Part shown: piece after piece, positions 11,453-64,000 of the stretch
Layout of the letters: every line of letters begins with the position of its first letter
How positions within the stretch are numbered: the first letter of the stretch is position 1
Assembly: GCA_009746045.1 (NCBI GenBank)
Contig: RPFO01001034.1
Location: forward strand, 402,001 to 466,000
Direction: 5' to 3'
DNA from: Mesostigma viride
Taxonomy: Eukaryota > Streptophyta > Mesostigmatophyceae > Mesostigmatales > Mesostigmataceae
DNA: 64,000 bases
The notes under the pieces: model-generated
What the model was told of the DNA's origin: nothing
The model's input: the letters and a program-made list of their open reading frames with translations, nothing else
Databases searched by the model: none
Translations under genes and position numbers: made by a program

Positions 11453-12485
11453 GCATCATGAGGATTGAGGCATACAATACCAGCGAGCTGTCTGCCACTG
11501 CTGCGCAATCCCTTTCCATGACAGGCCTTCACCCAATACCGTTAAAAAGAGGCCTGCATGGCTTCCTAGCAGCCCATGAAAACATCCTGGGTAGAGAGCA
11601 CCGAGGTCTCCTCGTTTCTGTACACCCATGCAACTTCCCTTGCTGCCCCACCCTAGGGGGGATGTCAAGGAGACAACCATGTGCTTGGGAAAGGAAAAAA
11701 AATAGCCCACATGAAAAGAACTACGCGCCCCCCTGTCTTTGCGCCAAAAAATCGTTACCGTACACCGAACCCTAAGCAACAAATGTCAGCATCAACACTG
11801 GGCCCTCGCATTTGCACTCTATGCGCTGGGGTACTGCTGCCTCTGGGAGTTAACCCGGAAGGCCAACAACACTTAATATTTTTAATACCACCGCTGCCCC
11901 ATGCCACTTGGCTTGTGGCCCAAATGCTGCCCTGGTTATGGTTCAGACGTGGCTGGAACCTGCCTGCTCTAGGGAGGGCCCGTTCTGACAAACCACGGCT
12001 CCTAGGGGACACCACAGGCCACACAGAAAACCTGGCTGTTCACAAATCCGGTGCTCCGCTCACTGTTGCGAAGACGCTTGGCCATGAACAGAGCTGCCGT
12101 CACGCAAGAGATCTGGAGGTGCTGCAATAGGAGACCTGCTGCGAGGACAGCTGGCAGCTTTAGGATACCCCTGCGGCTATCTACCAGGGCTGCTGACCAT
12201 CTACGGCTCCTGCAGCCATGTACAATTGTGACCTGAAGGCCATGCACGAGATGACCACTGCTGCTGCTTTATGACACCGCTGATGCAGGGCAAGCTGATC
12301 ATCGGAAACCACTGCCCGCTTACAACCCGGCAGGCCACTTCAAAGTCATGTTCCCCGCATCGAAGTCATCTTATTTCCCAGGTAATAGATCGCAGACCCG
12401 CTGGCCGCTTACGGCACCTGCTGCCGCTCTCACAGGACTTGGCCACCTGGGAGATCTGCAGCCACCCACGAGGCCAGGTGGCGCG
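11453..12485. other. 3' flank of Fd-GOGAT, no gene recognised
   Basis: Only short unsupported frames are present. An echo of the Fd-GOGAT 3' coding end (GAGACCTGCTGCGAGGA) occurs at about 12131-12147, against the real copy at 12490-12506. Confidence 0.55.
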
Positions 12486-15400: not shown

Positions 15401-16972
15401 TCATCCAGGGACTTGCACCCCAGGGACGCCAGGGTGATCCGGACCTCCTCGGCGACGTACTGGAAGAAATTGACCAGGTCCGAGGGGACACCGGGGAAGC
15501 GGGCGCGCAGCTCCTCGCGCTGGGAGGCCACCCCCACCGGGCAGTTGTTGGTGTGGCACACGCGCGCCATGATGCAACCGGTGGCGATCATCGCGACCGA
15601 CCCAAACCCATACTCGTCGGCGCCCAGCGCGGCGGCGGTGATGATGTCGACGCCGGACTTGAAGCCTCCGTCCACGCGCAGGACGACGCGGTCACGCAGC
15701 TCATTCTGGACCAGGGCCTGAGGGAGTGAAGGGAAGGATGCGCATCCAAGCGGGACAGGGGACAAGAATAAGAAACTTGGGGTGCGCGGCTCGTTCTGGC
15801 CCAAGGCCTGTAAAGAGGCAAAAGATATTGTTTGGGACTAAACAAGGAAAGGCAATGACAGGAAAGCTGTTACTATTATCCCCCCCCCCCTCCTCACCTT
15901 GTGTGACTCGATCAAGCCCAGCTCCCACGGTCCACCCGCGTGCTTGATGGAGCTGATGGGGCTCGCGCCCGTGCCGCCATCATGCCCCGAGACCTGGATG
16001 ATGTCTGCGTTGGCCTTGGCCACGCCGCTCGCGACGGTGCCGATGCCCACCTCCGCGACCAGCTTGACCGAGACCTTGGCCTCCGCGTTCACCTGGTGCA
16101 AGTCCCAGATGAGCTGCGCGAGGTCCTCGATCGAGTAGATGTCGTGGTGGGGCGGCGGCGAGATGAGCGTGACTCCCGGCTTGGAGTTGCGCAGCCCGCC
16201 GATGTACGGGGAGACCTTGGTCCCTGGCAGCTGGCCACCCTCCCCGGGCTTGGCGCCCTGGGCGATCTTGATCTCGAGCTGCTCCGCGTTGGCAAGGAAG
16301 CTCGGGGTCACGCCGAAGCGGCCGGACGCGACCTGCTTGATCTTGGAGTTGGCCGTGTCGCCGTTCTTGAGGCCCTTCACGTAGGGCAGCGTCTTGGACA
16401 GGCCGTTCTCATCCACGTCCGTCAGCTGCGCACGAGGAAACGCACAAGGCAGCATGGTGATATAAATAAAGCACCATGTTACTACCCACAGCATGTTACT
16501 AACCAAAGCAAGCAAAATAAGCTATGGAAAGTAAGGGAAGGAAGACATCCTTGCCAGCATGTCAACAAGATGGGGCATGCCCAGACACAAGAAAAGCGGC
16601 AATACTCTTATTAAATTTCTTAACAGGCAACCACATAATTTACAGTACACATAAACTACAACGTGACGCGCCAAGGAAACAGCATCTTAACTGTTGACAA
16701 ACTGCCCAGGGCAGTGTAGGAACCTTTCCTTCCTCTTTCCCCCCTCCCTTTTCCCCTTTCTTCTTTTCCATTACGTACTTGCGCAATCGCATTTTGAGAA
16801 CCCTGCGTGAACAGAACCTGTTACAAAATAACGCGCTTCATTCGTTAACTACAGCACTGATAATGAGCCCCCCCCCCTCCCTCCCCCCCCCCTGTTTTCT
16901 TTCTTACACGGACAATGGACACCCGCCCCTCACCTTGATGAAGCGCGAGGGGTCCTCTCCGCCCTCGCCCGA

Positions 16973-17005
<33 letters not shown>

Positions 17006-18428
17006 CGCGATGCTCTCGTGGCACTCCCTGGAGATGGCCCCCAGGGACATGCCACCCGTCGCAAACCGCTCCATGATGGCCGACACCGGCTCCACCTGGT
17101 CCAGCGGGATGGGCGCCCCCTTGGGGGCCACCTCGAGCAGGTCGCGCAGGACCGAAGTCGGGCGCGTCTTGAGGTACTCCGAGTAGTAGGCAAACGCCTC
17201 GGGCTCATTCCCGCGCACCGCCTTGTGGAGCAGCTTGGTCATCTCAGGGTTGTTCCCGTGGTGCTCGCCGCCGGGGCGAGACTGGATGAAGCCAAAGTTC
17301 TCCAGCTTCTTGCGCTCCTCCTGGGTGGTGTGTGTGTGTGTGTGTGTGTGGGTGGGGGCGTGTGAGGTAAATTACGTCAAGTGACATTAGATGAGTAAAT
17401 AACCACATTTGTTGCGCTCCTCCTGAGGGATAGTAGGGGGGGGTGATGTACATCACATCAAATGACACATGAGGTACGTTTCATAAAGTGACATACTCCA
17501 GTAAAGAACAACAATTGTTGCGCCATTCCTGGGAAAAGAGGGGTTCATGAGATAAATTTATTGCCGGATTTGCGGGTACACAAGGGGGGGGGGGGGGGGG
17601 GGGGGCGGACAGGAGGCGGAAGGGGTGGATGTAGGAAGTAACCGGGGATGCGAGGACAATGGGAGCTCGAGTTTGTAGAAAACACAGTGAGTGCACAAAC
17701 TAAAATGGCCTCAAGAACTCCTTCAATTATTTGACCACCTCAAAACCCCTTTGATCAACCTTGATTTGATTTTTAAAAAACACTGACAACCGAGTCCAGC
17801 AGCTTGGTTTAAGCCAACAAAGCACAGGGAAAAACCCCTACCTGGCCTACAGAAATAACCCCTACCCTACCTGAACGACCCAATCGCCACCGTACACCAC
17901 CCACCGATACCCAGACCACCCAGAGATCATCACCACACCAACCACCTGAACTGGCCCAACCATAAACCTTCCTGCTTCTCCCTACCTGGCCCAACAACCT
18001 CTTTCCAATCACCCCCCTCTCCCTACCTGGCCGGCATCCAGCGGCGCGTATCCCGTGCGCCAGAAGTTCAACGCCTCTGCCTCCAACTCATCCAGCGTCA
18101 ACCCCCCGATCCTCGACGGGGTGCCGCGGAAGCCCAGGTCGATCACGTCCGGCCCGAGGCCATACGCCTCAAAGATCTGGGCGCCCGAATATGAGGACAG
18201 CAGGCAGATGCCCATCTTGGACAGGATCTTGAGGACACCCTTCTCGAGCGCCTTCTTCAGGTTGCGCTGCGCGCCGCGGCGCGACGTCACCGGCGCCTTG
18301 CCGCGCTGCATCATCTGCTTCACCTTGGGGTTGGCGGCCCACTGGCGGCACGTCTCCAGCGCCAGGTAGGGGCACACCGCGCTGAATGGGTGGGTGGTGG
18401 GTGAGTAATGCGGGTGGGGCGGTGGGGA

Positions 18429-18474
<46 letters not shown>

Positions 18475-21400
18475 TTTTTTTTTGGGGGGGGGAGGCAAGG
18501 GGGAGCCACGGAGAGAAGGGGAGCCCGAGGTACATGGGTGTTAGTCCATTTAATGACTATAGATAATTTAGACTTGGTACACACTCGGGCCGACCGTACA
18601 TGAACCCCCGTTCTACAGCACGACAGCCATCCATGGATATCTGCTGCATGAATTCATTCAAAGATGACCGCGGCATGGTTCCCAGTTCCCACCGAATAGC
18701 ATCAGCTATGTTCATCCCTAAACCCTAAACCCTAAACCCCCGCTTCCCCCCCCCCCCCCCCTTCCCTGACCTGGCTGCCTTTCCCTTCTCCTCCCAGCCT
18801 CGCCTAGCTGCTTTCCCCCTCTCCTTCCGCCCTCACCTGGCGCCGTATCCGATGAGGCACGCCACGTGGTGCGTGCTGAAGGCGGTGGCCGTGTCGACCA
18901 CGATGGACGCCTGCAGCCGCTTGCCATTGGCGATCAGGTGGTGGTGGACCGCGCCCACCGCCAGCAGCGCGGGGATGCACGGCGTGTTCAGGTCCTGCCG
19001 CGCGACATGGGGAGAGGGGGGAACAGAATTACAGGGATAAGCAGGAAAATAAGGCATGTCCAGGGGTTTAGGGTTTAGGGTTTGGCAGTATGCACGCTAA
19101 AACCTAAACGGAGATAAGCAGGAAAATAAGGGGATAAGGCATGTCCAGGGGTGGAAGCAAGTACAAGGGCAACCGCTGACAAATGCGACCAAAATGCCAA
19201 CGACAACCCCAACCAGAAGCAACTTACCACACGCCTCCTTTCACGCGCCCTCCCCACACTCAGGTCCATTAACTCACTCACCCGTCCATGCCCCCCATCC
19301 CGCTGTTGTCAACCTTTGTTGTCACTCCACTCACCCTGGGCTTTCCACCCCTCCACATCACGCACCTGTTCATACTCCCAATCCACTTTCCACTTGTCTT
19401 TGCATTTCTCACAATCCCCCTGGGCTCTGGGACACCTAGCATGGCCCCGCTCACCCTACACTCCACCCACCCACCCACCCACCCACCCACCCACCCACCC
19501 ACCCACCCACCCCCACCCACCCACCCACCCACCCACCCACCCACCCACCCACCCACCCACCCACCCACCCACCCACCCACCCACCCACCCATCCACTCAC
19601 CCTGGGCTCGCGGTCAGACAGCACGATGCAGTGCGTGCCCTCGGCCACCGCCGCGTCCACCTTGGCCAGCAGCGCCTGCACCGCTTTGGCCAGGTCGCCC
19701 TTGCTTCCGCCCGCCCCCGTCCTATGATACGAGAGACCCAGGCGGCTGCTCTTGAGGATGGGGTTGGCCATGATCCAGTCGACGTCCGTCTCATAGAGGA
19801 CAGGGGACTTGAGGTGGACCTGGCGCGCGTCCTCGGGTTTGAGGTCGAGCAGGTTGCCACGCGGGCCGAGCGCGATGTCGAGTGACATGACGAGGCCCTC
19901 GCGCAGCGGGTCAATGGCGGGGTTGGTGACCTGGCCCATGGAGGGGGATAGAACAGATGGGAGATTCGGTGGGGGGAGAGAATGGGAATTGTGTGGGGTG
20001 GGTGGGGGAGGGCGAGGACAAGGTCGTCAAAGGGCGGGGGAGAGGGGGGTTGCTGACCTGGCGATTAGACGGGGAGAGGGAATGGAGAAAGGAAAGGCAG
20101 TCCATAGGCCAACTTAGGAGGCGGGTACTACAATATAAGGCAGCGATACTAAATAAAGGTATGGATGTAAAATATGATAGACGGCAACGATACTAAATAA
20201 AGGTATGGATGTAAAACATGATAGAAAATGTGTCACGTGTGGATTACCGGCGCAAACCACATTTCAAGTAAATGACACGAGTGATGAGACCCACTCGACT
20301 GTCTCGAGACATTCTACACCCCTCGTGCCCATGCGGTTCCCGCATGAGCATACTCGAGGCATTCTACACCCCTCGTGCCCATGCGGTTCCCGCATGAGCA
20401 TACTGATTCATTTACAAACGATCCAAACGCCAACCACAACCACCCGCCTGATCAGGGATTCTTCAGGGTCCACAAACACCCGCCCGTTTAGAGATTCTTC
20501 TGGGTCAAGTCCTCGCACCACCACCACCCACCTGCGCGAACCGCTGCTTGAAGTAGTCGTACAGCGAGTGCGGGCGCTCGGATAGCACGGCAATCGGCGT
20601 GTCGTCGCCCATGCAGAACGTGGGCTCCACTCCCGTCGCACCCATGCTCTCGATGATCATCTGGACGTCCTCCGACGAGTAGCCAAACGCGCTGGAGAAA
20701 TCGGCCGCAGATAGATAGATACAGAACACGACAAGATAAGATAAAAAAAGATAAACTAAATAAGATAGATGGATACAGAACACAACAAGACATATATGTT
20801 TGTTGAGAATGTCACCACAACAATGTATACAAGACACACAACAAGATATATAAGTGTAGCCGTGTTAACATGTAGGAGTCTTAGCATGTATCACACATGG
20901 TCGCTGCACATGGCGATGCAACAACAAATCCTCTTTATACAACGACAAAAGCGCAGCCTGCATAACACTAGGAAGCTAAGATGTGTGCATACACACCTGT
21001 CCTTCCTAGGCGTGAAACAACAGGAGAGCAGCAGGAATACAACAATGTTTATCCCCTACTGACCCCCCCCCCCCCCTTTGGCCCAGCTCTATTTCCTCCA
21101 CACCGTTTCCTTCTACATCCACCGTTAATCACACCCACTCTATCCCAACCACAACCCTGCAAGCCGCCGCATCCCTTGGACTCCCCCAATATCGCTTGCC
21201 ACCGCTCGTCCTCTCCCCCTTGCCCCTCCACAGACACCCACCTCTGCGCGGCCAGCAGCTCGCTGGGGCTGAGCATCAGCTCGCGCGAGAGCAGGATGTC
21301 CGGCATGTCGCTGCGGTACTTGGCGTTCCAGCCCTTGTAGTTGGCGCGCGAGGCAACCTCCTTCTTGATGTCCACGTTGCGCAGGATCTGGCGGCGGGGA

Positions 21401-24400
21401 AAGACAAAATGATCAAGGACGAGAGAGATGCGGCAGGGTGAGACAGGGATGAAAGACCCCACACATGCCACCATTTCCACGCTGCGGAATACATAATATA
21501 TACTATCAAAGAGACAACCAGCGCAGGCCAGAAATCTGGAAGAATCTGGACCATATACCATATACCATATACCATATACCATATACCATATACCATATAC
21601 TATATCGTATATATGATGTATCATATATCTCTGCTCTGGGGGCTGTGGAAGGGAGAAACGGCAAAGGAAGGAATGGATACACCTAGAAGGATGACGAAGG
21701 AGGTGACCGATGTGCCCTGGGTAAAGGGGCGAGTAGGGCCTGTGGACAGGCACGACGGAAGGAGAGTGGGTAGAGGCATTTGAACACGATAATAACCCCT
21801 TCACCCTAAAACATCCGACCCACCTTGCCTAAGTACACGTGCACAAAATATACTATTAAATGAAAACCATAACAAGCTATTTGTACTCACTACGACTTCA
21901 GACCCACCTTGCCCGAGTCCAGGTGGACGGAGATCATCATGCCGGGCCCGAGCCGGCTCTTGCTCACGATGCTGGCCTCGTCCATCGGGATGACCCCGAC
22001 CTCAGACGCGATGAACAGGGTGCCGTCGCTCGTCTCCCACACGCGCGCAGGGCGCAGGCCGTTGCGGTCGAGAGCACAGCCGATCGTCTCGCCGTCGCTA
22101 AACACGAGCAGGGCGGGGCCATCCCACGCCTCCATGTGGCCACCCATGTACTCGTAGAAGTCAATCACCTGGGGGTGGGGAAGAGGGAGGAACCGAGGAG
22201 AAGAGGGGGGGGGGGGGGGGGGGGGGCGGGAAGGAACCGAGATAGAAACAAAAAATTAAAAAGAAGGAAAAAAAAAAAAAAAAGGAACCGAGATAGGAGC
22301 AGGGAAGGATTAAGTCAACCGTTAGGGGGGAGGGGATGTCGGTGAAAACATCCTAGAAGCAAAAATGGAGGGAGGGAGGGAGGGAGGGAGGGAGGGAGGG
22401 AGGGAGGGAGGGAGGGAGGGAGGGAGGGAGGGAGGGAGGGAGGGAGGGAGGGAGGGAGGGAGGGAGGGAGGGAGGGAGGGAGGGAGGGAGGGAGGGAGGG
22501 AGGGAGGGAGGCAGGGAGGCAGGGAGGGAGGGAGGGAGGGAGGGAGGGAGGGAGGGAGGGAGGGAGGGAGGGAGGGAGGGAGGGAGGGAGGGGCAAATGG
22601 GGGAAGTGAGGAAGGAAGGAGCAGGGGGAGGATGGGGGGGGGGGGGCGGGGGAAGGAGGACGGGAAAAGGGGGAAGTAGGGGAGGCAGTGAAGCAAACGG
22701 AAGGGAAGAGCAAGGGAGGGGAAAAGCTAATCAGCTAGGGGGTCAGTGGCTCCAGCATGTACCATGCAGTTTGAACATGTGCCTTAAGCTCCCCCACAGG
22801 GGAATGTGGGCAGATTGAAGATGTCGAATAGTTAACAAATCATGGCGCTAGAAACCATGAAACATGCCGCTAGCTAGAAAAACTGCTTTTTTGTCCAAAG
22901 AGCCGTCCCATCACCCGACCCACCTCCGGATACGTGGCGTCCAGCGTCGGGTGGTTGCGGTAGGCCTCGGGGACCAGGATCATGAGCGCCTCCTCGAGTG
23001 GCCGCCCGCTCTTCACCAGGATCTCGGCCACGTTGTCCAAGTTGGCGCTGTCCGACTTGGCAAAGTCGGCGTAAGGCTTGAGAGACTGCTCGCGCCCGTG
23101 CCATACCTCGGACCGCATCGACTCCCCGCGGCAGGACATCCAGTTGAGGTTGCCCTGCAGCGTGTTGATCTCGCCGTTGTGGCCCAGCATGCGCATGGGC
23201 TGTGCGAGCGGCCACTTGGGGTTGGTGTTCGTGCTGAACCGGCGGTGGTAGATCGCCCAGTTGGTCGTGAAGTCCTCGTCCTGGAACAGAAGGGACATGA
23301 TAAGAGGTAGCCATGCAATCCTTGGTAAGTGTGTGAAACTGTTGACTGCGTGAGGAGGGTTTTGTCCTGGCGATACCCGCCGGTTCGAAGGATACGAGCG
23401 ATAACAAAGGCAAGGCCAGGGCATACTTCGCATTAAGAGCGCATCCACCCACACATAACCCCACTTTGCTTGAGCACCATTCACTCCCTCTTCCCCCACC
23501 TTGAGGTCCAGGTAAAAGTTGCCGAGCGCCGATGCCTGCAGCATGCCCTTGTAGACGACGCTGCGGTTGGAGAAGGAGCAGAAGTAGAGGTCATCCCCCC
23601 ACGGCTGCGCGCGCGCCTTCTCCTCGATGAGCTTGCGCGTGAGGAACAGGTGCCTCTCCCGCGCCTTAATGCCAGTCGTACTCTCCTCATCGGCCACGTC
23701 CATGATCACCTGCTCGATCTTGGGCTGCGTGGCGGCGGCCATCTTGCCCACGACGGCATTGTTCACGGGCACCGTGCGCCAGCCGAGCACCTTAATGCCC
23801 TCGCCCGCGATCACCTCGTTGATGACTGCAGTAGGGACGGGAGAGGGGCGAGGTAGATAAAGGTGGATTTTGTGAGGAAGGGAAGGCGGCTGGGGAGGAA
23901 GGAGAAAGCGAGAGGGAGAAGGGGCGGGAGGGGGGGGGGAGAGAACTACAAACCAGTACAACGTAATCCATCACACAGATAAACAACATTCGGACACATA
24001 ATTTTCTTTGCGTGATCAACACGAATAATAGTAATAATAATAATAATAATATTATTAATATAAATCTTCATCAAGTGAAGCTGCTGTCATCAAGAGCCTG
24101 TCGCCCTTAGTAACCAACATAAATAGCTATATCAATGGGCCCATCGCACTGCTTGAAACTGCTACGGATACAATCTTTGTATTTGTACTCCTAATCTGCC
24201 ACTCCACGTACGCTTGCGTGCGGCGTCGGCCTTGGCATCGTCCCTCGGCAGGAAGACCATGCCCACACCCACGTTGTTCTCGTTGAGCGGTGGCAGCCCC
24301 TTGTCGCGCGCCCAGGCCTGCAGCAGCCGCCACGGCACCGCGGTCATGACGCCCGCGCCGTCGCCCGACGCGTTGTCGGCGCACGAACCCCCGCGGTGCT

Positions 24401-26064
24401 CCATGCAGCCGAGCGCGGTGAGCGCCTGCTGCAGGATCTTGTGCGTGCGCTGGCTGTCGGTGCGGGCGAGCACGCCGACACCGCACGCGCCGTGCTCCGA
24501 CAGGATCGTCTCCAGGTCCGCCACCTGGCAGCACAAGGCGCATAATGAGGGGGGGGGGGGGGGAGTAGGGATTGTAAGTTCAGGTATCCAAGGGAGCCAG
24601 CTGGGAGGGGAGGGGGGGAGATAAGGGAGGGAGATAAGTAGGGATTATAAGTAGGGATAGTAGGGAGTCAGTAGGAATAGAAATGGGATTCAAAGGTGTA
24701 CTAAAAAGGAATAGCATAGCGAATTGCTTCCGTACTTCACCACAGGGATTTCCTACCAAGGATTGGGTGGGGCGATGACTAAAAACGTATGTAGGGAGTC
24801 GATTCGGGAAGCAAGCAGGGAATAGAGTAGGGAATCTGCCCGATCCAGGGAGGGAAAGATAACATGACCAGCAAGTACGTCCAATATGCCCCAAAACTTC
24901 AAGAACAACAAAAATGCTTCAAAAGCATTGATTCCTGATAACATCCCATCAGTTGTACTATCGCACAAGGGAATTTATCATTACTTGAAAACCCACTCTG
25001 GTGCCACACGCTTGAGAGGGCCGCATGCAAGAATGGGCAAAACAATTACAACAAAAAGAAGACTACATACTTGAAAGGTAGGTCATGCATCAATGTCTAA
25101 TAAGAGGCCAACACAGCAATTACTGTCTACACTTGCGAGAACGACACATACAGACTTTTCATTTCAGGACAACGGCTCCATGGAGATCCACACCTCATCG
25201 TACCACATGATCAATCACACCTAGGAATTGTACTGATCTATACTTTTTATTTTGATTTATACCTTGGCTTGTCAACAAACGTCTATCACTGGCTGTGGAG
25301 CATATCAATGGCTATCTCGTATCCACGGAACTTGAAAATCGATAGAGCAACAGACACGCCGAAGTTTTCTAGCCACGCTTGCTTTCACTAGCAGTCTTGT
25401 CAAGTGACAAAGACACGCTTATGCGGCAGCGTGAGCTAACCGCTTCGTTGTAAATCATGCGTCCCGGGTAGATATGGGCATACAAGCGCGGAAATAACGA
25501 CCACGCATAGCGTTCAAGGTACATTTGAGGCCGGAAGGGGGGAGGCAATCTGAGGCCGGGATGTAAAATAACAAAAAGCGACGTATACTAATAAAAACCA
25601 TCAAAAGACGGCGATTCCCCGTAAATTGCAGGAATCGACCTTATCCGCGAATAAATTTGTGTGATGAATACGTGTATCCAGGAATTAAGATAATCGAGTC
25701 GCCTAAACGCTTTTCAGGAACGGGCTTGGTGTGAAGGACAGCAATTTACGCCAAAAAATGTATAAAGCGCAGCGAAGGCGTCGTCGCGTACCTCGCACAC
25801 CCTCGGAGACTCGGGCGGAGACAGGGTCGCACATGCTTCAGAGTAGGGCCTACATGACAGCTTTAGGAAAGGCGAGTAAGACTTCGAGACCGCCTCTACA
25901 CGGGCCCCAAGAAATGACGACGCCAACGAGGTTTTCCTGGCCGAGCATCCCACCCCGCGCAGCGCTTTGACCGGCTGCGCGACACGCTTAGCCTGCGGTT
26001 GATAATGGGCGGACACGCGGAGCAGGCCGGCAGGCAACACACAATGCTGCAACGCAGCCGCCAT
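12486..26064 (-). CDS. GLU1: Ferredoxin-dependent glutamate synthase, plastid (17 exons)
   Basis: Exons 5'->3' on the minus strand: 26064-25792, 24524-24212, 23825-23500, 23280-22924, 22168-21908, 21387-21242, 20691-20532, 19930-19601, 18994-18837, 18381-18027, 17320-16934, 16425-15898, 15717-15211, 14767-14628, 14148-14055, 13478-13240, 12801-12486. All have GT-AG and compatible phases, giving 1,629 aa, the usual size. It converts glutamine plus 2-oxoglutarate to two glutamates with reduced ferredoxin in the chloroplast stroma. Exon 1 encodes a transit peptide ([13 protein letters not shown]...). Mature Cys105 in [10 protein letters not shown] is the glutaminase nucleophile. The 3Fe-4S cysteines 1246, 1252 and 1257 are in [12 protein letters not shown]. 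The C-terminal domain ends ...VLSSQQVS with no NADH-GOGAT beta subunit, so the ferredoxin type is favoured. Start alternatives are 26064 or 26100. Confidence 0.95.
13146..13238 (-). repeat. Donor-proximal tandem repeat in the last Fd-GOGAT intron
   Basis: From the donor GTACGTGGACCATTCTTTTC onward, a unit of about 30 nt (ACGTGGACCATTCTTTTCTC) recurs about four times with changes. The repeat begins at the splice site itself. Confidence 0.6.
13911..13960 (-). repeat. Donor echo of the Fd-GOGAT exon ending at 14055
   Basis: The minus strand reads [12 protein letters not shown], mirroring the exon end [11 protein letters not shown], about 130 bp into the following intron. A neighbouring GGAGACAACC-family fragment (13967-13992) lies between. 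Confidence 0.65.
14841..14862 (-). repeat. Acceptor echo 1 of the Fd-GOGAT exon starting at 14767
   Basis: The minus strand reads CCCAG then TGCGCGAGGCGATCACG, against the true GCAG then CTGCGCGAGGCGATCGCG. It lies in the upstream intron, about 90 bp from the real acceptor. Confidence 0.65.
15004..15030 (-). repeat. Acceptor echo 2 of the Fd-GOGAT exon starting at 14767
   Basis: The minus strand reads CTGAGCAG then ATGCACGAGGCGATCACAAG, encoding MHEAIT, against LREAIA in the real exon. It retains a usable AG. Confidence 0.65.
15783..15807 (-). repeat. Acceptor echo of the Fd-GOGAT exon starting at 15717
   Basis: After TTTACAG the minus strand reads GCCTTGGGCCAGAACGAGCC (ALGQNEPR), against the real GCCCTGGTCCAGAATGAGCT (ALVQNELR). 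It lies 90 bp upstream in the 180-bp intron. Confidence 0.75.
17404..17528 (-). repeat. Two acceptor echoes of the Fd-GOGAT exon starting at 17320
   Basis: The minus strand has CTCAG|GAGGAGCGCAACAAATG (start 17422) and CCCAG|GAATGGCGCAACAATTG (start 17528). The real exon begins CCCAG|GAGGAGCGCAAGAAGC. Surrounding intron sequence is also repeated at about 100-bp spacing. Confidence 0.7.
17833..17992 (-). repeat. Donor echoes of the Fd-GOGAT exon ending at 18027
   Basis: The real junction GGCCAG|GTAGGGAG recurs at about 17980-17992 (GGGCCAGGTAGGGAG) and about 17838-17850 (GGCCAGGTAGGGGT). These are short matches, so support is weaker than for the acceptor echoes. Confidence 0.5.
18430..18472. 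repeat. (ATT)n microsatellite in an Fd-GOGAT intron
   Basis: About 14 ATT units followed by T and G runs. Confidence 0.9.
18714..18737. repeat. Interstitial telomere-type CCCTAAA repeats
   Basis: Three CCCTAAA units lie in the intron downstream of the exon 18837-18994. An inverted set (TTTAGGG) lies at 19066-19086 in the next intron. Plant-type telomere sequence supports a green-lineage host. Confidence 0.8.
19066..19086. repeat. Interstitial telomere-type TTTAGGG repeats
   Basis: GGTTTAGGGTTTAGGGTTTG in the intron upstream of exon 18837-18994, opposite in orientation to the set at 18714-18737. Confidence 0.8.
19462..19592. repeat. (CCCA)n microsatellite in an Fd-GOGAT intron
   Basis: About 130 bp of CCCA ending next to the donor of exon 19601-19930. 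On the transcribed strand it is (TGGG)n, which can form G-quadruplexes. Confidence 0.9.
20046..20062 (-). repeat. Acceptor echo of the Fd-GOGAT exon starting at 19930
   Basis: The minus strand reads CGCCAG|GTCAGCAACCCCC (VSNP), against the real GGCCAG|GTCACCAACCCC (VTNP), 127 bp upstream in the intron. Confidence 0.6.
20304..20403. repeat. 50-bp direct tandem duplication
   Basis: Two 50-bp units at 20304-20353 and 20354-20403 (CGAGRCATTCTACACCCCTC ...) differ at about one position. They lie inside an Fd-GOGAT intron. Confidence 0.9.
21505..21552 (+). repeat. GGAGACAACC-family fragment running into a CATATAC array
   Basis: The first 45 nt of the repeat family (GAGACAACCAGCGCAGGCC, GAAATCTGGAAGAATCTGG) pass directly into (CATATAC)n at 21547-21601, so the 3' end is variable or replaced by microsatellite. 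Confidence 0.7.
21547..21601. repeat. (CATATAC)n minisatellite
   Basis: About seven 7-bp units in an Fd-GOGAT intron. Confidence 0.9.
21824..21842 (-). repeat. Donor echo of the Fd-GOGAT exon ending at 21908
   Basis: The minus strand reads GTACTTAGGCAAG|GTGGGTCGG, against the real GGACTCGGGCAAG|GTGGGTCTG, 84 bp into the intron. Confidence 0.65.
22366..22591. repeat. (GGGA)n microsatellite, about 225 bp
   Basis: Almost pure GGGA/GAGG repeat with two GGCA interruptions, in an Fd-GOGAT intron. It is polypyrimidine on the coding strand. Every open frame across it is low complexity. Confidence 0.95.
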
Positions 26065-27131: not shown

Positions 27132-30100
27132 ATGTCTGACGACGACGAAGAGCTGGTATGCTTATAATCATAATTGTTTTTGTGAATAATGACGTCAAAT
27201 TAGGGTGACGCTGGTATAGCTGCTGTCTGCACCTTCTGAAGTTTGGATTAATTTTCTTGTAGAAAGCAAGTCGTTTTATTTTCCCTGTTCAGGAGCTCTT
27301 TCCCGTTAAGGAGCTCTGTTAGTCCACTTCCGACGTTCTGATTGTCTAAAGTCCGCTACCTTTGGTTTGAAACTTTGGTGCCCGATGTATACATATCCAG
27401 CGCGAGCTACGAAAAGCGAGGTCCGCGCAGAGAGGCGGCGAGAATGCAGGTGGGCTGTACTTTTTGCCTGGCCCCGATACGGTTGCATCCGTGCACTGCC
27501 AATTCCCGTACGTTTCTTCATAGCAAGCTAGTTTGTCTCTCTGTTCTACGATAGCTGGTTGATGCGGTGCAGGGACGGCCTGCTGCATCTCGAGTTGGTA
27601 TATGTTGGCTTATTAATTAATTAATTAGTCTCGTGTCCCCGTATACGTTGGCTAGAATACTACAGTATATACTTGGAATCCAACCACTTAACACTCACTT
27701 GTGCTTGCCTCGTGGCTGCCTTGTAAAGCGGTGGTGTGATTGTCCTGAAAGTTGCCCTGGTCCCACTTAGCTGGTGAGTCCACCACTACATCTCATCATC
27801 TGGTGCCAGACGGATGCATAAACACTCACTCACTTGTGCTTGCCTTATGCTTGCCTCCCACACAGCTGGCGTGTCCGCCACTACATCTCATCAGCTCGTG
27901 CCAGAGGGAGGCATACCTGAATCAGCCACCTTAGCGTTAACCAGCGACCTTAGAGTCAAGAAGCCACCTTAGAGTTAATCAGCCACCTTTGAGTGAGTAA
28001 GCCACGTTCGAGTCAATTAGCCACCTTTGAGTTGATCAGCCATCATACGGTTTCTCAGCGATGTCTGCTTCATCTCAGCACTGTCCCCCCTCACGCACAG
28101 TAGTCGGGTTCACCCAGCATGCTACAGTTTGGTTGTGGCGAACCCTAGCGTTTCAGGTGCCCGATTAGCTGCACTGTTCAACGATGCCGAACGGTTGTCA
28201 CTTGTCAAAGTATGTGGGTTGCGGCTGGCATGAACACCGTAGTGCTTGACAGGGCGTCCTGAATACAGTGCCATTATTGGCATGGGTTAAAATGGTTTGT
28301 GGACCATTCATCCATTGACGAACTTGTTTGACCTGCATGTGTAACTGGTTGTGCCCCCTCCAGAGCCTGCGTCCACACATCCTACTCTCGCTCATTGTTG
28401 GTTCAAACGCCCCTTGGAACCCACCATCACCTCGATTGCTTCGTTACAACCATGCTTAAACCAGACTCTCCAAATGAGAAGGCTACCGGACTCTTCAAGT
28501 AAGAAGGGAACCAGACTATCTTAATGAGAAGGGTACCAGACTCTCTAAATAAGGAGGCTACCAGACTCTCTAAGTAAGAAGGCTAGCAGACTCTCAAAAT
28601 AAGGAGGCTATCAGACTCTCTAAATAAGAAGGCCACCAGACTCTCTAAGTAAGAAGGCTACCAGACTCTCTTAATAAGAAGGCTACCACACTCTCTAAAT
28701 GAGAAGGCTACCAGACTCTCTTAATAAGAAGGCTACCAGACTCTCTAAATAAGGAGGCTATCCGACTCTCTAACAAGAAGGCTACCAGACTCTCTAAATT
28801 AGAAGGCTACCAGACTCTCTAAATAAGAAGGCTTCCAGACTCTCTAAATAAGAAGGCTACCTGATGGTGATATTTTTTTATGTGCTCGTTGTTACGTGGC
28901 TATTGATTTCGTTTCTTGGTCGGTCTGTCATCTCCCGACCCGCGCCCCCCCGCCCCCCCCTCCCCCCCGTCTCTCCTTTTATCGGCTGCGACATTTGTTC
29001 GGCAACATCACCTCTTGTCGGTCCTGGACAGGACCCTCAGCTTCGTCCAGGGAGTCCCTGCTTGAGCGTCAGAGGCGGATGCAAGCACTGGTGGGTTGCT
29101 GTTGTTAGTAATAGTTTAGTGGCACCTGTTGATGGAGGACAAGCTCGGTGGGTGGCTGATGCTGGTGGCACCTGTGGATGGAGCGTGCGAGCGCGGTGGG
29201 TGGCAGGTGTTTGTGGCACCTGTTGGGGGAGGACAGGCACGGATGCGTCGGTAGAATTATCGGCACTAGCCTTGTGGCTCGTGCACTCGTGTAGGACAGC
29301 AGCTATTTGTAAGGTGCTCGTAAATTTCCAGTGCATGATTGGGCAAAGAACGTGCTAATCGTTCCTGTGTGTGTGCCAGAGGTGGGGAAGTGCTTGTAAA
29401 GCAGCGAGTAACTGGCAGGCATGGGGTCGGCTCTTAAGCTACCTTTTTTGTACGTGGTTGCCTTAACTACCTTCATCTCCTTGACTACCTGTTTTCTATC
29501 TACCTCGTTTCTGTCTACCTCTTTTCTGTCTACCTCTTTTCTATCTACCTCGTTTTTATCTACCTCGTTTCTATTTACCTCTTTGATACGTCATGTTTTC
29601 TCATATTGTGTTGCCTCCTCGCTGGCTTAGGCATGGCAGTGAGGCACTGACAGCTGTGCAAGTGTCGAGGTCGCAAAATGCCTGTCCAAACCATGCCTTG
29701 AGAGGCGCAACATTTTCATGCCTGACTCGTTGTTTCTGGATGACTTGTTGCCTTGCCTTGCCTGCCTTGTTTCACATGGCCTTGCCTTGCCCCCCCTGTT
29801 TTACCTTTGCCTTGCCTTGCCTGGCTCGCTCGCTGGATGACATCGCTGCGGGATGGATGGCATCGTCCAGGCGCAGCGGGATTCGTCCTTCTTCGCAGGG
29901 CCAGCCGCGGGCCAGCCGGGGGGCAAGGGCGGGGGACCGACGTGTGCCCAGCCTTCCTCAAGGGCCGGTGCACGTGGTGGCAGTGATGACGATGAGGATG
30001 CTGGGCCGGCCACTGTGGATGACGATGATGACGACGATGATGTAAGTGTGCTTCGGAGGTGGATGGCCATCCTTTCACACTAATGCTTTCACACTACTGG

Positions 30101-33100
30101 GTCTTTTATCAACTTGCCCCTGGTAGGGTTCTCTTTTCTTTTGCAGAATTCTTTTTTAATTAATGGGGCAGTAGAACATATTGTAGCGATGGTACCTAAA
30201 TGGATAGAATGTGTAGGGAGTGGGGGCGGGTGGTAAGGGAAGGAGATGACCTCCTATATTTTGTGTATGGAATTGTGTTTGGTTTGGGGGGTGCTTTCTC
30301 CTGGGGTCTGACCTGCCGCCAACGGCGGCGCATCAGACCTCTGACGCGGGCCCAAAACCCTTACTGGAAGGACTGATCCACCCCGCCTAAGGTTTGGTCT
30401 TCCGCGTCCTCACATCCGGTTATAGGTCTCCTTCACAGGCTATATGAGAGGATACCCACAGACAGCGGGTTACCCGCTGGCCTGAGCTTTCAATAGATAC
30501 TACCAGTGGTACTAGTATGAACGCTATCAATCATGTTTTTAATAGTTATTAACATTTTTGGTCTCTTCTTAGCTAGTTTACTTTTATTTATTTTGAGTAT
30601 CTTCTTTTGATTTCCCTTACTTCTCCCTCACCCTCGTGTCCCACCCTCACATTGATCCCATGCACTATCCACCTCCCAGGGGCCCCCGCTACCGCCACTT
30701 TCAAGGGGCAAGGACGACGACGACTTTGAAGACGAGCGGTTCGATGGCCTGCGTGGCCACTTCCCGATGGCCTTTGGCAAGTCCAAGGCCGCACCCCCGC
30801 CGGTGCTACCCATCCATGTCCATGAGAAAACCAAGCGGGTCGAAGAGAAAGCAATGCGGATAGCAGGAGCGAGCACGGCCCTCGGAGGTGATGCGGCTAA
30901 TGGTGGGCCACCGGTCACGACTAAATTGATAGGGGCAGCTCTTGGAGGTTTGTCCAATGATGCAAATAGCCAAAAGCTGTCGTCTGCGCCCCCGGCGGGG
31001 CCCGGTGTCCAAAGAGGGGTCGCTGCGAGGCCCTTCATCGGTCTCAAGGCAGCGCCAGCTGGAGCTGAACCACCTTTTGGCTCACCAGAATCAGTCGGGC
31101 CGCCTCGCCCCCCTTCAGGGAATGACCTGAGAGAGAGCTCCTTGGAGGTAGGGCCGCCCCGGCCCCCCCAGGGTGTTGCTGCAGAGGTCGACGATGACGA
31201 TGAGCCCGATATAGGCCCCCCCCGGCCCCCTCCTGGCAAGGAGGATTCTCCGGATATTGGCCCCCCCAGACCCCCCCTTGGAGGAGGGGAGAGGGAGGCA
31301 TCGCCGGATATCGGGCCGCCGCGCCCTCCAGGGGGTTCTGGTTCCGGTTCGCCAGAAGTGGAGATAGGACCGCCTCGGCCCAAGCGGAGGGCGGTGTCTG
31401 ATGGCCAGGCGGACGGGAGGAGTGATGAGGATGGGGGTGCCGATGGGCATGATAGTGATGATGATGACGATGACGATGATGCCGACGAGGAAAGGCTGGA
31501 GAGCGACCCCTACCGCATGCCGCTGGGTCACGAGATTGTGCTCAAGGGGCATCGGAAAGTGGTCACGGCCGTGGCCGTGGATCCCTCAGGGGCACGCGTG
31601 ATCACGGGGTCGACGGACTACACGCTGCGCATGTACGACTTTGGGGGGATGGACGCGCGGTTGAAGTCGTTCCGCCAGCTGGAGCCCTTTGAGGCGCATC
31701 CGATTCGGGGCATCAGCTGGTCGCCCACGGGGGATCGCTTCCTTGTGGTCAGCGGGTCGGCGAAGCTAAAGGTGGGGTTGCAATGAATTGAATACCCTCT
31801 TTCTGATCTAATTGTGTGCCATGTTGTCTAGGGATCGCTTTGCTTGTTGTCCAATACTCTGTAATGCTGTCTAGAAATTTCTTCCTGGCGGCCCGTGGGT
31901 CGGCCAAGTGGCAGGTGGGTCACTTTAGAAAAGATGGGAACGGTTTCCCTGTTAGAAGCCGTTCCATACCATTTAGGTTGATATTCCTCGCTGTCAGTGG
32001 GTCGGCGAAGGTGCAGGTGGGGGGGAACATGAAACTTTGGAGAACCATTTTCCATCCGTGATGGTCTATTATTGACATTTTTTCTTCTTCTTCTTCTTCT
32101 TCTTCTTCTTCTTCTTCTTCTTCTTCTTCTTCTTCTTCTTCTTCTTCTTCTTCTTCTTCTTCTTCTTCTTCTTCTTCTTCTTCTTCTTCTTCTTCTTCTT
32201 CTTCTTCTTCTTCTTCTTCTTCTTCTTCTTCTTCTTCTTCTTCTTCTTCTTCTTCTTCTTCTTCTTCTTCTCATTATTCTTCTTCTTATTGTTATCATTA
32301 TTATTATTGTTATTATTCCGATGGTTGCGTGTACGTTGTGGTTAAAGGTAGGGACGTCAATGGGCCATGTTCCTGGCAGTCCGATGGTTGCGTTTGTCAA
32401 GGGGGGGGGGGGGGGGGGGGGGGGGGGGTTCTCCCCTGTGTCAAGTTGTACGCCAGGACTGTCCAGTTGTATGCACCAGTTGTAATGATATGCTCTCGGC
32501 GGTCGGATGGTTGGCGATGGTCATGTGTGGCACTTTGAAAGGGGTACTATCTCTTACGATGGTAGAGGTAAGGACAGGGCGTGGCGCCTGGGGCATGACC
32601 GGGACGATTGTGCTGGTTTCCCTACCCAGCCCACACCACCTGCTTTCTATTAGTTGTTGCCATGCCGTCCGCCAGGTGTTTGACCGTGACGGTTTCCGGC
32701 CGGGACAATCATAATAATCACATACTTGTTGTTATTTGTGTGTATGCCGTTGTGTGGATTGTGTGCCATACCCCAGGTGTTTAACCGTGACGGCTGCGAG
32801 CTTAGACTGTACACTATGATGATTATGTATTTGTGGGTGTCGCCCGTGCTGTCCACCAGGTGTTTGACCGTGACGGCTGCGAGCTCGGAGAGTCCCTCCG
32901 CGGCGACATGTACCTGCGCGACGCCAAGAACACAAAGGGCCACATCACGGGCGTGACCGCTGGCTGCTGGCACCCCAAGGACAAAGAGACCTTTCTGTCG
33001 TCGTCCGAGGACGGCACTCTGCGCGTGTGGAACGCGGAGACATTCACAAAGGGGCAGGCGCACGTGATCAAACCCAAGCTGCCGCGCCCGGGCCGTGTCG

Positions 33101-36100
33101 CGGTGACCACGTGCAGTTATAGTCCGGACGGGAAGCTGCTGGGGGGGGCGCTGCAGGACGGCTCACTGCAGGTGTGTGTGTGTTTGGGGTGGCTTTTGTT
33201 TTTCTAAATTGAAAGGGTTTGGGCAGCTCACTGTTTCTGGCAGTCACCTCGCACTGTCTTCCAAGGAACGGTCTCGGAAGGGTTGGCGCCATGGTGTGTG
33301 TGCTGTTGCCTCAAGTGTGCTGTCGCCTCTGGCTTCCCTGGGTGTCTGCTGCCTGCCCCTTTCGTATCTATTTGGGTGCGCCGCAGTGTCCTACCATGTG
33401 CGCCATGGTTTTGTTTGGATAACCGACGGCGATGCCTTCCTCATTTCCTGCTTGACTTCCTGCATGTGGTTGACGTTGCTGGAGTGCAACAAGGAAAATT
33501 TTCCAGCTGGAAACTCGGGATAAGACAGAGGGTCTCGATGTTTGCAAATTTTAATAAAGAAATGTCTTCGGGGCAATGAAACACGCCGCTTGGAAAGGGG
33601 CTTCAGCTGATCCTGTCCACCTCTCTGCGCATTCTATGGCTTTCGCTGGTTTCCCTGGTACTGCCGGGATGTTTCCCTGGGTATTGTCCCCTCCACCCCT
33701 CCTCCCCTCCACCCCTCCTCCCCTCCACCCCTCCTCCCCTCCACCCCTCCACCCCTCCTCCCCTCCTCCCCTCCTCCCTCCTCCCCTCCTCCCCCTCCCC
33801 TCCTCCCCTCCTCCCCTCCTCCCCTCCTCCCCTCCTCCCCTCCTCCCCTCCTCCCCTCCTCCCCTCCTCCCTCCTCCCCTCCTCCCCTCCTCCCCTCCTC
33901 CCCTCCTCCCTCCTCCCCTCCTCCCCTCCTCCCTCCTCCCCTCCTCCCCTCCTCCCCTCCTCCCTCCTCCCTCCTCCCCTCCCCCCTCCTCCCTCCCCTC
34001 CTCCCCCTCCTCTCCCCTCCTCCCCTCCTCCCTCCTCCCTCCTCCCCTCCTCCCCTCCTCCCCTCCTCCCTCCTCCCCTCCTCCCCTCCTCCCCTCCTCC
34101 CCTCCTCCCTCCTCCTCCTCCCCTCCTCCCCTCCTCCCCTCCTCCCCTCCTCCCCTCCTCCCCTCCTCCCCTCCTCCCCTCCTCCCCTCCTCCCCTCCTC
34201 CCTCCTCCCCTCCTCCCCTCCTCCCCTCCTCCCCTCCTCCCCTCCTCCCCTCCTCCCTCCTCCCTCCTCCCCTCCTCCCTCCTCCCCTCCTCCCCTCCTC
34301 CCCTCCTCCCCTCCTCCCCTCCTCCCCTCCTCCCCCTCCCCTCCTCCCCCCCTCCCCCCCTCCCCCCCCCCCTCCCCTCCCCCTCCCCCCCCCTCACCCC
34401 CTCCCCCCCCACGCCTCCCCCCCTCCCCCCTCCCCCCTCCCCCCTCCCCCCCTCCCCTCCCCCCTCCCCCTCCCCCTCCCCCCCTCCCCCTCCCTCCCCC
34501 TCCCCCCTCCCCCTCCCCCCCTCCCCCCTCCCCCCCCCTCCCCCCTCCCCCCTCCCCCTCCCCCTCCCCCCCTCCCCCTCCCCCCTCCCCCCTCCCCCCC
34601 TCCCCCCCTCCCCCCCTCCCCCCTCCCCCTCCCTCCCCCTCCCCCCCTCCCCCCTCCCCCTCCCCTCCCCCCTCCCCCCCTCCCCTCCCCTCCCCTCCCC
34701 TGTCCGTCTCCCTCCTCCCTCCTCCCTCCTCCCCTCCTCCCTCCTCCCCTCCTCCCTCCTCCCTCCTCCCTCCTCCCCTCCTCCCCCTCCCCTCCTCCCC
34801 TCCTCCCCTCCTCCCCTTGCCCTCGTATGGCATGTGCCAGGTCTGGGCCAACCGCAGCTATTTCGGTGGCCGCCCCGACCACTACCTGGAGGATGCCAAC
34901 ACGCCGGGGGAAGACACCTCGTGCATCTGCTTCTCGGAGGACGGCCACACGGTGTTGACGCGCTGCACTGATGGAGTCATGAAGGTGAGGGCTAGCGCCC
35001 CTTAGTAGAATGATAGGACATAGAGCAATGATAGCATATAGAGCTTACCACAACGCATCGAAGGCCTCATGAGGGTGGTTAGTATCCTTTGGATGATCAC
35101 TATGCACAAGACCTCACCCTCTGTGCCCCCTTTGTGCCCACCGCCACCCCCACCCCACCCCCACCCCCACCCCCACCCCCACCCCACCCACCCCCCACCC
35201 CCACCCCCACCCCCACCCCACCCCACCCCCACCCCCACCCACCCCCACCCCCACCCCACCCCCACCCCCACCCCCACCCCCACCCCCACCCCCACCCCAC
35301 CCCCACCCCCACCCCCACCCCACCCCCACCCCCACCCCCACCCCCACCCCCACCCCCACCCCCACCCCACCCCCACCCCCACCCCACCCCCACCCCCACC
35401 CCCACCCCCACCCCCACCCCCCCCACCCACCCCCACCCCCCCCCACCCTCACCCCCACCCCACCCCCACCCCCAACCCCAACCCCACCCCCACCCCCAAC
35501 CCCAACCCCAACCCCAACCCCACCCCATTCCATGCCTACCCAACACCGATTCCACCTCACCTGCCCTTTCCTTTGTGCCATAACAATCCATTTATGCACT
35601 CAAAATATGCACTGCATCAAACCCCATGCACTGCATCAAACATGCATTCAAACGTGCCCTCCATCAAACACGCACTCAAACATGCCCTCCATCCAACATG
35701 CACTCAAACATGTCCTCCCTGTGACTCCACCCACCACACCACACTCCAGATCTGGGACCTGCGTGCCTTCAAGTCCCCCGTCAAGCTCTTCGAGGGCATC
35801 CCTACGCGCTACCCTCAGAGCAATGTCTGCTTCAGCCCCGGCGAGCGGCTCATCGCGGTGCCCGCGTCGGCCGACAAGAGCAAGGACGAGGGGGGTGCGC
35901 TCGTCCTGTTTGACCGCGACAGCCTCTCCTTCGTGCGGCGCGTCGGGTTCTCCGAGGGCAGTGCGGTGTGCGCCAGCTGGCACGCAGGCATCAACCAGGT
36001 GCGCTCCCCAAAAAGAAAGGGATTCTAAGAAAGGGTTTCTGAGAAAGGGTTTCTAAGAAAGGGTTTCTAAGAAAGGGTTTTGAAGTGCTAACCGTGCAGG

Positions 36101-39100
36101 ATTAGCGAGGGTGCGTCGAGTGAGACCTGGACGTGTCTGCTCGAAAGGGTTACGCATAGAATAAAAAGGGTTTATAACTAAAAGGGTTATAACTAGAAGG
36201 GTTATAACCCTTGTAACTAGAAGGGTTATAACTATAAGGGTTATGACTAGAAAGGGTTTTGCATAGATAGAATAGATCCAGAATGGGTCTACCCAAAGAC
36301 ACCCCCCCACCCCCCACCCCCCCACCCCCGCACCGCCATGATAATATATCATCTAAGCTTTGATGGTAATGCTTTCTTACCAACCCCTCGTCACCCCACC
36401 TCTGCCTCGTTATTTGCTTCTTTAGTATTTCCGTCTAGCTACGTACTTGAGTATTTCCGTTGCCTCGCTCACTTTTCCCATCTCCCTGACGCCACAAGCT
36501 TCAATTTCCGCAACTACCCTCCTGTATATCATTAGTTAGGAGTCTGTCTCCATGTTCCCCCCTTGAAGCTTCCGTACCCCATCAAAAGTGCATAGACGGA
36601 ATCGTGTGGATACCCTACCCCATGGCCTTCTCACACCCACCTGCCGCGACCCACCTCCACCCTTCACACACCCCAACCGGTTCCCCCTCCCCCCCCCCCC
36701 CCCCCCCCCCGCTTCCTCCCCCCTCCCCCCCACACCTTCGCCCCTTCCCCTGTTCCCCCGCTCCCCCCTTCCCCTCGTCCCCCCTTCACCCCTTCACCCC
36801 CCCCAGATCTTTGTTGGCGTGGGCACCAAGAAGTATGGTGCGACGCACGTTTTGTACGACCCCACCTGCAGCCAGCGGGGCGCGCTCCTGTGCATGGCGC
36901 GCGCGCCCCGCAAAGACGACCCGATGGACGTGGACGTGCGCCCCGTCATCCACAACCCGCACGCACTGCCTCTCTTCCGGGAGGAGCCGAGCCGGAAGAG
37001 ATCGAGGGAGAAGGCGAGGGCGGACCCCATCAAGTCGCGGCGGCCAGAGCTACCGGTCAAGGGCCAGGGCAAGGGAGGGCGCGTGGGCGTGGCAAAGGGC
37101 ACGCTGCTCACGCAGTATTTGCTCAAGGTTTGCTGTTTACAAGCTCAGTGTGGGTTTGCTGTTTACAAGCTTAGTGTGGGTTTGCTGTTTACAAGCTTAG
37201 TGTGGGTTTGCCATCTTAGGTTTTACCATCTTAGTGTGGGTTCGCTGTTTACAAGCTTAATGTAGGTTTGCTGTTTACAAGCTCAGTGCGGGTTCGCTGT
37301 TTACAAGCTTAGTGTGCTTAGTGTGAGGTTAGTGAAGGTGGTTGGGACTAGAATAGAATATGATAAGAGAATAAGAATAGAAATGTTTCATGATAAGACT
37401 AGAAAGGCTTCATGGAATGACCCATGGCGGGTGCATAGGTGCTCACACAGTTCCTGCTCTCAAGGGGGAGGGTGAAGGGTTCATGATGGCGATGATGGCT
37501 GAATGGCCTTTTGGCATGGCTTGCTGAACGTGCGTGGGGGTGAGCTCTCTGTGCAGTTCAGGTTTGACCAAAGGGGATAGTTGCATTGTCTCGTGTCGGA
37601 TTGTTTAGTGTAGGTTTGACCAAAGGGGGGGGAAGGTAGCATTGTCTCGTGTCGGATTGCTCGAATTTGGGGGATCATTAGGTAGGAGAGCATTAGGAGT
37701 TGCCCCCCTGTACTTGTGAATGACTTTTCTACTTTTGCATGTTATCTGCGTCATGTCGACGCTATCCCAACACGAGGCCGGCATCATTCTAACAATGCTG
37801 ACCCAGTTCTACCACCATGCAAACAAAGTGCTGACCCAGTGCAAACAAAATGCGAACACAGTTCTACCACGATGCTGCCACAATGCTAACCCAGTGCTAA
37901 CCCCATGCAAACACGATGCAAAGATAGTGCCACCATTTAGCATGATGCTAATGCGAACGCAACGCTGACACAACGCTGATGACACACGATGATGCCCACA
38001 TGACGACATGATGCGGTGCGTGGCGTGCCCCCCCAGGAGGTGGGCATGGTGCGCGACCCCTCGCTGGAGGAGGACCCTCGCGAGGCGCTGCTCAAGCACG
38101 CGGAGGCGGCCGCCAACAACCCGCAGTTCTTCGGCACCGCGTACATGCACACGCAGCCCACGGTGAGTGTTGAGCGGTTTCGCCCCTGCTGGGCGTGATG
38201 ACAGATTCAACGTTTGGAGTGGTGATATGACGCGCTGGTTGTCTCGTTGACACGATGCGAGTGTGAGGTGACACGGACGCTGGTTTGGGACCACCAAATT
38301 GCGCAGTTCGCGGTGAGTGATTAGGTCTTTGGCAATTAATGGTAGAAATCAAATTCGATGATTTGTTGTCATGTGTGCAAAGCATGGGCTGGACAGGGAA
38401 AGCCAATCACCGGGCTTCTGGTGTGGGCATTATGTGGGCATATTATGTTTGGGCGTAGGATGTTACCTCTACATCGTACACTGGTGGGGAGTATACCTCT
38501 ACATCCTATCAATAAGACAACTAATGGTATGGCCCTATGACATGGCCGTGTGGGTCTACAGTGTGTTTTAATAGCATTGTGTTTAGATGTATAGTGTACA
38601 AGGGGGAGCCCTGCGGCCTGAATCGGGGGGCTATGGCGTGTTGGCGCAAAGTGAGTTTGCATTTGTTTGGAACTGCAAGCATGCCTGCGCAGCACATCGG
38701 GAGTGAACATGAACACGGTATGCGCTGGCAATCCCACTTTGTTGTGAATGGCGTACTGGCATGGTGCTCGTCAGGCTTCATGCACTTGTAAGAGCCAAAA
38801 ATGCATGTCTGAGGCTTGGTGTGTATGTACCCTTCCTCACGTGGAAGGGGACAGTACTTTGGAGCCAGTGCAGTTATGCACTACACACCCAATTGGATTT
38901 GTCAGTATAATTAATTAACTAAAAAATTAAACACGTGCTCCCGTTGGGGAGTCACGGTAGAGTATTGCGAGAAACCCGGTAATATTAAGCAAGACAATGC
39001 CTGCTCGTTGTTCAACATTTAGAAGTGCTCAATCTCTAATCTGTCAGCAGCATGTCATTAATCTGTCAGTAGCATGTAATTAACCTGTCAGTAGCATGTC

Positions 39101-63620: not shown

Positions 63621-64000
63621 CTGGCAGTAACAGTCATTATGATATGATAGGGTTGGTGGGGGCAATGATGGTTGGTGGTAATGATGTTGGTTGTGGTGGT
63701 AATAACAGTGATTGGTAGTGAAAGGGAGGGGAGGGAGGGGAGGGCGAGGGCAAGGGGGGGAGGGGGGCAGGGCAAGGAGCCAGAAGGACAACAAGCAAAA
63801 GAAGACTATGATCAGTTATACCATGCCCACCGAGCAATCTATCCTGGGTGCAGCAGAGCCAGTCCAAGATTACACAACACACAGAACCCTACAAAAAAAG
63901 GTCATCCTTCCTACTATCTAGCAATCTAGTGGGAATTTCGGGCCTGAGTTAACAACTGAATTAATAGCAACATGCTTTCACACTTTAAAAACGCTGCTTT

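Follow-up and report, generated by a model that had tools for sequence, protein, structure and literature searches.

Copies of splice junctions within introns of WDR70 and a glutamate synthase gene, probably left by local duplication

Genes and predicted introns of the window

The window, i.e., the whole 64,000-nt stretch that was analyzed, is eukaryotic DNA rich in simple repeats. Its source may be a green-lineage organism, probably an alga. Three genes were identified in it. WDR70 lies on the forward strand, and the frame of its exon 2 matched PDB chain 6zym_p, WD repeat-containing protein 70 (E = 1.4e-26). The glutamate synthase gene GltB lies on the reverse strand; one exon peptide matched 1llw, a ferredoxin-dependent glutamate synthase (E = 4.8e-9), and going by this best match GltB is of the ferredoxin type. 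RPL11 was recognized by PDB matches of its last exon, the best of which we take to be plant ribosomes.

29853..38162, +, WDR70 gene
29853-30041, 30680-31771, 32860-33171, 34841-34984, 35750-35998, 36807-37127 and 38037-38162, +, WDR70 exons, from GT/AG borders and open frame
12486..24524, −, GltB gene
63434-63622, RPL11 last exon

Introns were predicted from GT/AG borders and open reading frame, which gave 6 putative introns for WDR70 and 14 for GltB with usable edges. The annotation leaves out at least one uncertain GltB intron between 21238 and 20690, as well as the 3′ end of WDR70, the 5′ end of GltB and the upstream part of RPL11.

Two further features of the window were noted. The frames at 5310–6410 and other stretches at 3.7–10 kb and 39–64 kb, partly repeated, presumably encode reverse transcriptase and gag-like products of non-LTR retrotransposons. 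A 24-nt sequence, GACAACCMGCGCAKGCCAGAAATC, occurs six times, at 3626, 13969, 21513, 39352 and 44591 (+) and at 45686 (−). One end of these copies is constant and the extension is variable, resembling the shared end of truncated mobile elements.

Cognate junction copies in two genes

A sequence-only reading of this DNA had described a WDR70 intron that carries two copies of the end of its upstream exon and two copies of the start of its downstream exon. The intron spans 31772–32859. It had been numbered as intron 3; by the exon model it is intron 2, if a 5′ UTR intron is absent. Both donor-edge copies were recovered gap-free by blastn and alignment at 31882–31914 and 31984–32016, and both acceptor-edge copies were found ahead of the real exon at 32676 and 32777. 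GT or AG is retained in all four. Such copies are referred to as echoes below.

31739..31777, +, real donor edge of WDR70 exon 2: last 33 nt of the exon plus GTGGGG
31882..31920, +, donor echo 1, GT at 31915; 72% identical to the real edge, 82% to echo 2
31984..32022, +, donor echo 2, GT at 32017; 82% identical to the real edge (32/39, no gap, E = 1.4e-4)
32660..32692, +, acceptor echo 1, exon-like from 32676; 91% (30/33, E = 9e-7), exon part 17/17
32764..32802, +, acceptor echo 2, exon-like from 32777; 97% over 32773-32802 (29/30, E = 8e-8)
32844..32885, +, real acceptor edge of WDR70 exon 3, exon start at 32860 (blastn, exon model)

The two donor echoes also matched each other in blastn (echo 1 versus 31984–32021: 82%, 31/38, E = 4.9e-4). 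When 29400–38700 was searched by blastn at E = 0.5, the echoes were the sole direct repeats shared by exon and intron, besides a tandem array that starts at 37126 and overlaps two exon bases. The remaining matches were acidic repeats between exons, GA-rich stretches on opposite strands, palindromes and tandem arrays within introns. Part of exon 2 (31731–31753) also seemed, by eye, to recur at 31829–31851, downstream of the real donor and ahead of donor echo 1. The WDR70 introns also contain extremely long arrays of TTC and of TCCCCTCC, at 32082–32287 and 33687–34817.

The peptides GSAK and VF[DN]RDG can indeed be read in the copies, but the conservation of peptide that had been claimed for them was not borne out. 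Over 11 echoes, the differences between exon and echo were spread over the three codon positions as 18/86, 14/85 and 19/81, with no bias. The copies thus show similarity of DNA and are not evidence of protein conservation, and on these even counts conservation at the protein level was not supported (echo extents were set by eye).

GltB carries echoes as well:

21818..21844, −, intron 4 donor echo; real donor after 21908; score 29 versus a column maximum of 20
20046..20062, −, intron 5 acceptor echo; real exon start 19930; 16/17, score 29
19326..19342, −, intron 6 donor echo; real donor after 19601; 17/17 identical
17977..17991, −, intron 8 donor echo; real donor after 18027; 15/15 identical
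17409..17425, −, intron 8 acceptor echo 1; real exon start 17320; 16/17, score 29
17470..17531, −, another unit of the intron 8 array; includes acceptor copy 3, resembling exon from 17528
15785..15810, −, intron 10 acceptor echo; real exon start 15717; 22/26, score 32
15008..15030, −, intron 11 acceptor echo 1; real exon start 14767; score 31
14841..14861, −, intron 11 acceptor echo 2; exon-only score 31; CAG retained if one exon base is deleted
13912..13946, −, intron 13 donor echo; real donor after 14055; 28/35, score 35
13722..13739, −, intron 13 acceptor echo; real exon start 13478; score 21, below the 99th percentile of 21.2
12090..12151, −, copy of the GltB coding end in the 3′ flank; 74% over 62 nt to 12452-12510, E = 3e-4; score 40, null maximum 23

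Intron 8 holds three acceptor copies in a row, and 17363–17425 matched 17470–17531 at 75% over 63 nt (blastn E = 3e-4). Telomere-like CCCTAAA repeats in opposite orientations (18716–18740 and 19063–19083) flank the GltB exon 18994–18837.

For a test of generality, simple repeats were masked and the 50 nt around each junction were compared with the cognate intron and with each of the other 19; the 380 non-cognate junction–intron pairs of each junction type formed the null. Ten of the 40 junctions exceeded the 99th percentile of this null, where 0.4 were expected, and nine exceeded its maximum. Five of 20 donors passed the percentile (WDR70 intron 2; GltB introns 4, 6, 8 and 13), four of them also the maximum, and five of 20 acceptors passed both (WDR70 intron 2; GltB introns 5, 8, 10 and 11). 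The summed cognate scores were 390 for donors versus 298 (sd 9.5) and 412 for acceptors versus 300 (sd 9.2), in both cases beyond all 7324 derangements. With exon-interior queries as the control, 11/40 junctions were at the floor of p = 0.005; having no splice consensus, these queries were not retained as the principal control.

At least one cognate echo is thus borne by 8/20 introns in two genes, and 12/20 have none at this cut. The expectation of similar patterns in other genes was borne out for one more gene, the minus-strand glutamate synthase, which supports a process that reaches beyond a single gene. Three control edges, namely the RPL11 stop, the last RPL11 acceptor (whose intron is cut by the window end) and the WDR70 start, gave no echo above the null.

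Local duplication across the exon–intron border

The echoes are direct copies running across the junction. They include no more than about 33 nt of exon sequence, and their distance from the real edge is 41–266 nt. With one donor and one acceptor window masked (19/20 of each retained), direct matches were found for 14/38 junction windows and inverted matches for 1/38; for intron interior windows, the numbers were 102/319 and 10/319. Snap-back repair, which yields inverted copies, was rejected on the scarcity of such copies. In a sliding scan with a 30-nt window (score of at least 21), junction-centered windows matched the intron for 10/20 donors and 6/20 acceptors. Exon windows centered 45–150 nt from the edge did so in 3/320 cases, a count in which some windows of short exons may fall outside the exon. 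This near-absence of matches from the exon interior disfavors a displaced copy-and-paste of random nearby DNA.

Within the introns, 216/635 interior windows matched, a number inflated by the WDR70 tandem arrays. Local direct repeats are generally common in these introns, and the echoes therefore appear as the edge of a general tendency. In GltB, matches may still be more frequent at junctions than in the intron interior (10/26 versus 28/165 windows, p = 0.017; at a stricter cut 7/26 versus 22/165, p = 0.08), possibly because the exon, which does not drift, keeps its copies recognizable for longer. Tandem arrays were also seen to start right at two donors, at 37126–37316 in WDR70 intron 6 and at 13143–13238 in GltB intron 14, with units of 26 and 24 nt.

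In our view, the echoes are probably remnants of short direct duplications that occurred locally, across the junctions of introns prone to such rearrangement. In the mechanism that we propose, a local direct duplication of the tandem type, sometimes with extra DNA between the copies, would straddle the exon–intron border. The outermost donor, or the acceptor adjacent to the exon, would stay in use and the message would be unaltered, so that the allele would survive with a second copy of the junction left within the intron. Duplications that disturb the exon deeper in would be lost. Repeated rounds would lengthen the intron and line up two or three copies of its junction. What we infer here is that splicing uses the outer sites, that the mutations arise in this way and that most inner copies are neutral. 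The distances agree with duplication, as they are not multiples of 3 in 9/13 echoes, which is the chance rate. The repeated duplication of both splice junctions put forward by the sequence-only reading is supported, and of its two options, growth of introns or maintenance of spare junctions, growth is favored.

The copied coding end of GltB sits about 360 nt into the 3′ flank. It would be a stop codon, an edge that is not a splice site, and so hints that echoes may be a by-product of the duplications. The case is not clean, because the copied stretch has CAG|GT and a further exon is possible.

A contiguous tandem duplication also copies the DNA between the junction copies, and homology of the spacers was therefore examined in 17 pairs. 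Four pairs gave p < 0.05, one of them of low complexity (GltB intron 6); a fifth gave 0.053, and 12 showed nothing. Unit-wide homology was seen in few arrays: the acceptor of GltB intron 8 (p = 0.003), the acceptor of GltB intron 13 on the intron side (p = 0.010) and WDR70 acceptor echo 1 versus echo 2 (p = 0.03). All 17 combined gave p = 6.5e-4, with pairs that are partly dependent and the low-complexity one included. When 40-nt flanks were compared, the intron sides of 3/13 echoes and the exon sides of 11/13 were at the floor of p = 0.05.

Simulation of contiguous tandem duplication followed by neutral decay predicted spacer homology in 98–100% of cases at 10% divergence or less, in 57–93% at 18% and in 12–56% at 25%. 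The mean divergence of 11 echoes was 51/252 sites (20%), with extents set by eye. Two little-diverged echoes, WDR70 32777 and the GltB intron 8 donor, gave spacer p values of 0.47 and 0.98, and both were at the floor in the 40-nt test. Little-diverged echoes do fall short of the simulated spacer homology; for the others, a shortfall is uncertain. Any shortfall may come from extra DNA between the copies, from spacers that change faster than simulated or from echoes that are kept; the echoes seem better preserved than the spacers. Exon overhang was at most one-third of the copy distance in 14/14 pairs, with extents set by eye, which is not a uniform distribution. Such overhangs are better explained by short copies with intervening sequence than by long units lying end to end.

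Competing explanations and known systems

The alternative that survives best, although we hold it to be unlikely, is that the echoes began as duplications and may have been kept as working alternative or decoy sites, giving messages targeted to NMD or buffering loss of the main site. Exon-only searches gave 12 cognate matches (1.4 expected). Three of these, at score 20 and without GT/AG, are near chance and were not counted. The other nine, with scores above 20, all retain GT/AG, one only when a 1-nt deletion is allowed; in simulation, the neutral expectation for such retention was 0.018–0.028 at 18–20% divergence. Six donor echoes scored at the 96th–100th percentile of 753 intron GT decoys and eight acceptor echoes at the 87th–100th percentile of 460 AG decoys, scores like those of real sites. 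In three introns (WDR70 intron 2; GltB introns 8 and 11), the real acceptor is outscored by one or more of its echoes. The apparently better preservation of echo edges than of spacers points the same way.

The reading frames were also considered. Read in the exon frame, 7/8 acceptor echoes reach a stop after 11–93 codons, and use of the GltB intron 10 acceptor echo would add 30 codons in frame; both points count in favor of kept sites. Read-through past the real donors meets a stop within 4–7 codons in four echo introns and after 49 in GltB intron 6. For WDR70, the donor side stops at 4 codons, 32676 at 12, and 32777 stays unbroken for 59 codons, out of frame. Against working sites stand the lack of a codon-position signal, the lack of a frame preference in the distances and the 12/20 introns without an echo at the cut used. 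High scores are, moreover, expected for copies of real sites, and the sample is small.

A bolder proposal is that, in this lineage, intact spare copies of splice junctions, exon edge included, might arise by local duplication and then be held by selection or conversion. Many introns would then contain a standing stock of near-perfect alternative junctions. To us, this is improbable.

Gene conversion between the exon edge and the inner copy could preserve echoes while the spacers drift. It would account for some echoes that are highly identical without spacer homology, but the mean divergence given above is unlike that of a homogenized pair, and conversion tracts this short, ending at a junction, would be unusual. 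We regard this explanation as very unlikely. We give equally little credence to insertions with target-site duplication, by mobile DNA or introner-like elements, which would separate two copies of a junction. The copies are short, the DNA between them is mostly unrelated, and the donor spacer of GltB intron 13 holds one copy of the 24-nt piece GACAACCMGCGCAKGCCAGAAATC, present at five other sites of the window. Against this, blastn of 14 spacers with the window (E = 0.1) revealed no family, the other matches being low-complexity ones of the intron 6 spacer and one of 14 nt. The lengths of the copies vary widely, and the 24-nt piece lies clear of the ends of the copies. No single mobile family was seen among the 14 spacers within the window. 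Introners are recognized by similar sequence at several intron sites; the 14 spacers were dissimilar within the window.

Recursive splicing, with echoes as ratchet points between splicing steps, is highly improbable. After the copied exon, 5/6 donor echoes read AG|GT or GG|GT, and both acceptor echoes of WDR70 have CAG|GTGTTT; however, it is the copied exon and not a pyrimidine tract that precedes the donor echoes, and on inspection GT follows acceptor echoes only in WDR70 and GltB intron 5. A ratchet point would combine a pyrimidine tract, AG and a regenerated donor at one place, a pattern that neither the donor echoes nor the other acceptor echoes show on inspection. Least credible of all is that chance similarity or assembly error produced the echoes: the introns are repetitive, but the non-cognate controls and derangements contradict chance and refute it for the strong cases (the weakest being the two shortest donor echoes, identical over 15 and 17 nt), and most copies are diverged, so they are not a repeated read.

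Local duplication thus remains the preferred reading. If the pattern is genome-wide, it would provide a countable record of intron lengthening at the edges and of the material from which duplication could create introns, a route of intron gain often argued from single cases. The spliceosome would have to bypass nearby sites whose signal and exon edge match those of the real sites and of which some score higher. The echoes show how introns can lengthen and near-perfect false splice sites can accumulate, most likely via local duplications at the exon–intron border.

Among the papers listed by a few narrow literature searches, no title or abstract opening described introns with many such junction copies. 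Stwintrons (PMC8469720) likewise have extra donor and acceptor elements in one intervening sequence. They are nested working introns, mutually similar in that paper, whereas no nested pair is shown here. Intronic minisatellite-like arrays share with the echoes their local direct repeats of two or three units, and in WDR70 intron 6 and GltB intron 14 arrays start at or near donors. Unlike such arrays, the echoes are few, diverged and mostly without unit-wide homology.

The AGGT exon duplication model (Rogers 1989, via PMC4974935) and the novel Drosophila introns of PMC2891723 resemble the present case in that tandem duplication gives a spare GT and AG. As we understand the AGGT model from the citing text, a copy of the downstream exon lies at the start of the intron and a copy of the upstream exon at its end; here, donor copies follow the donor and acceptor copies precede the acceptor.

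The closest known case appears to be potato RdRp (PMC4974935), in which a local direct duplication made a new intron and exon; an 83-bp tandem duplication within an intron of the same gene is also described. As in potato RdRp, the direct duplications proposed here would span an existing junction and pass on its splice signals. In contrast to that case, we infer no new intron: the copy is buried in the old one, and such copies occur in many introns of two genes.
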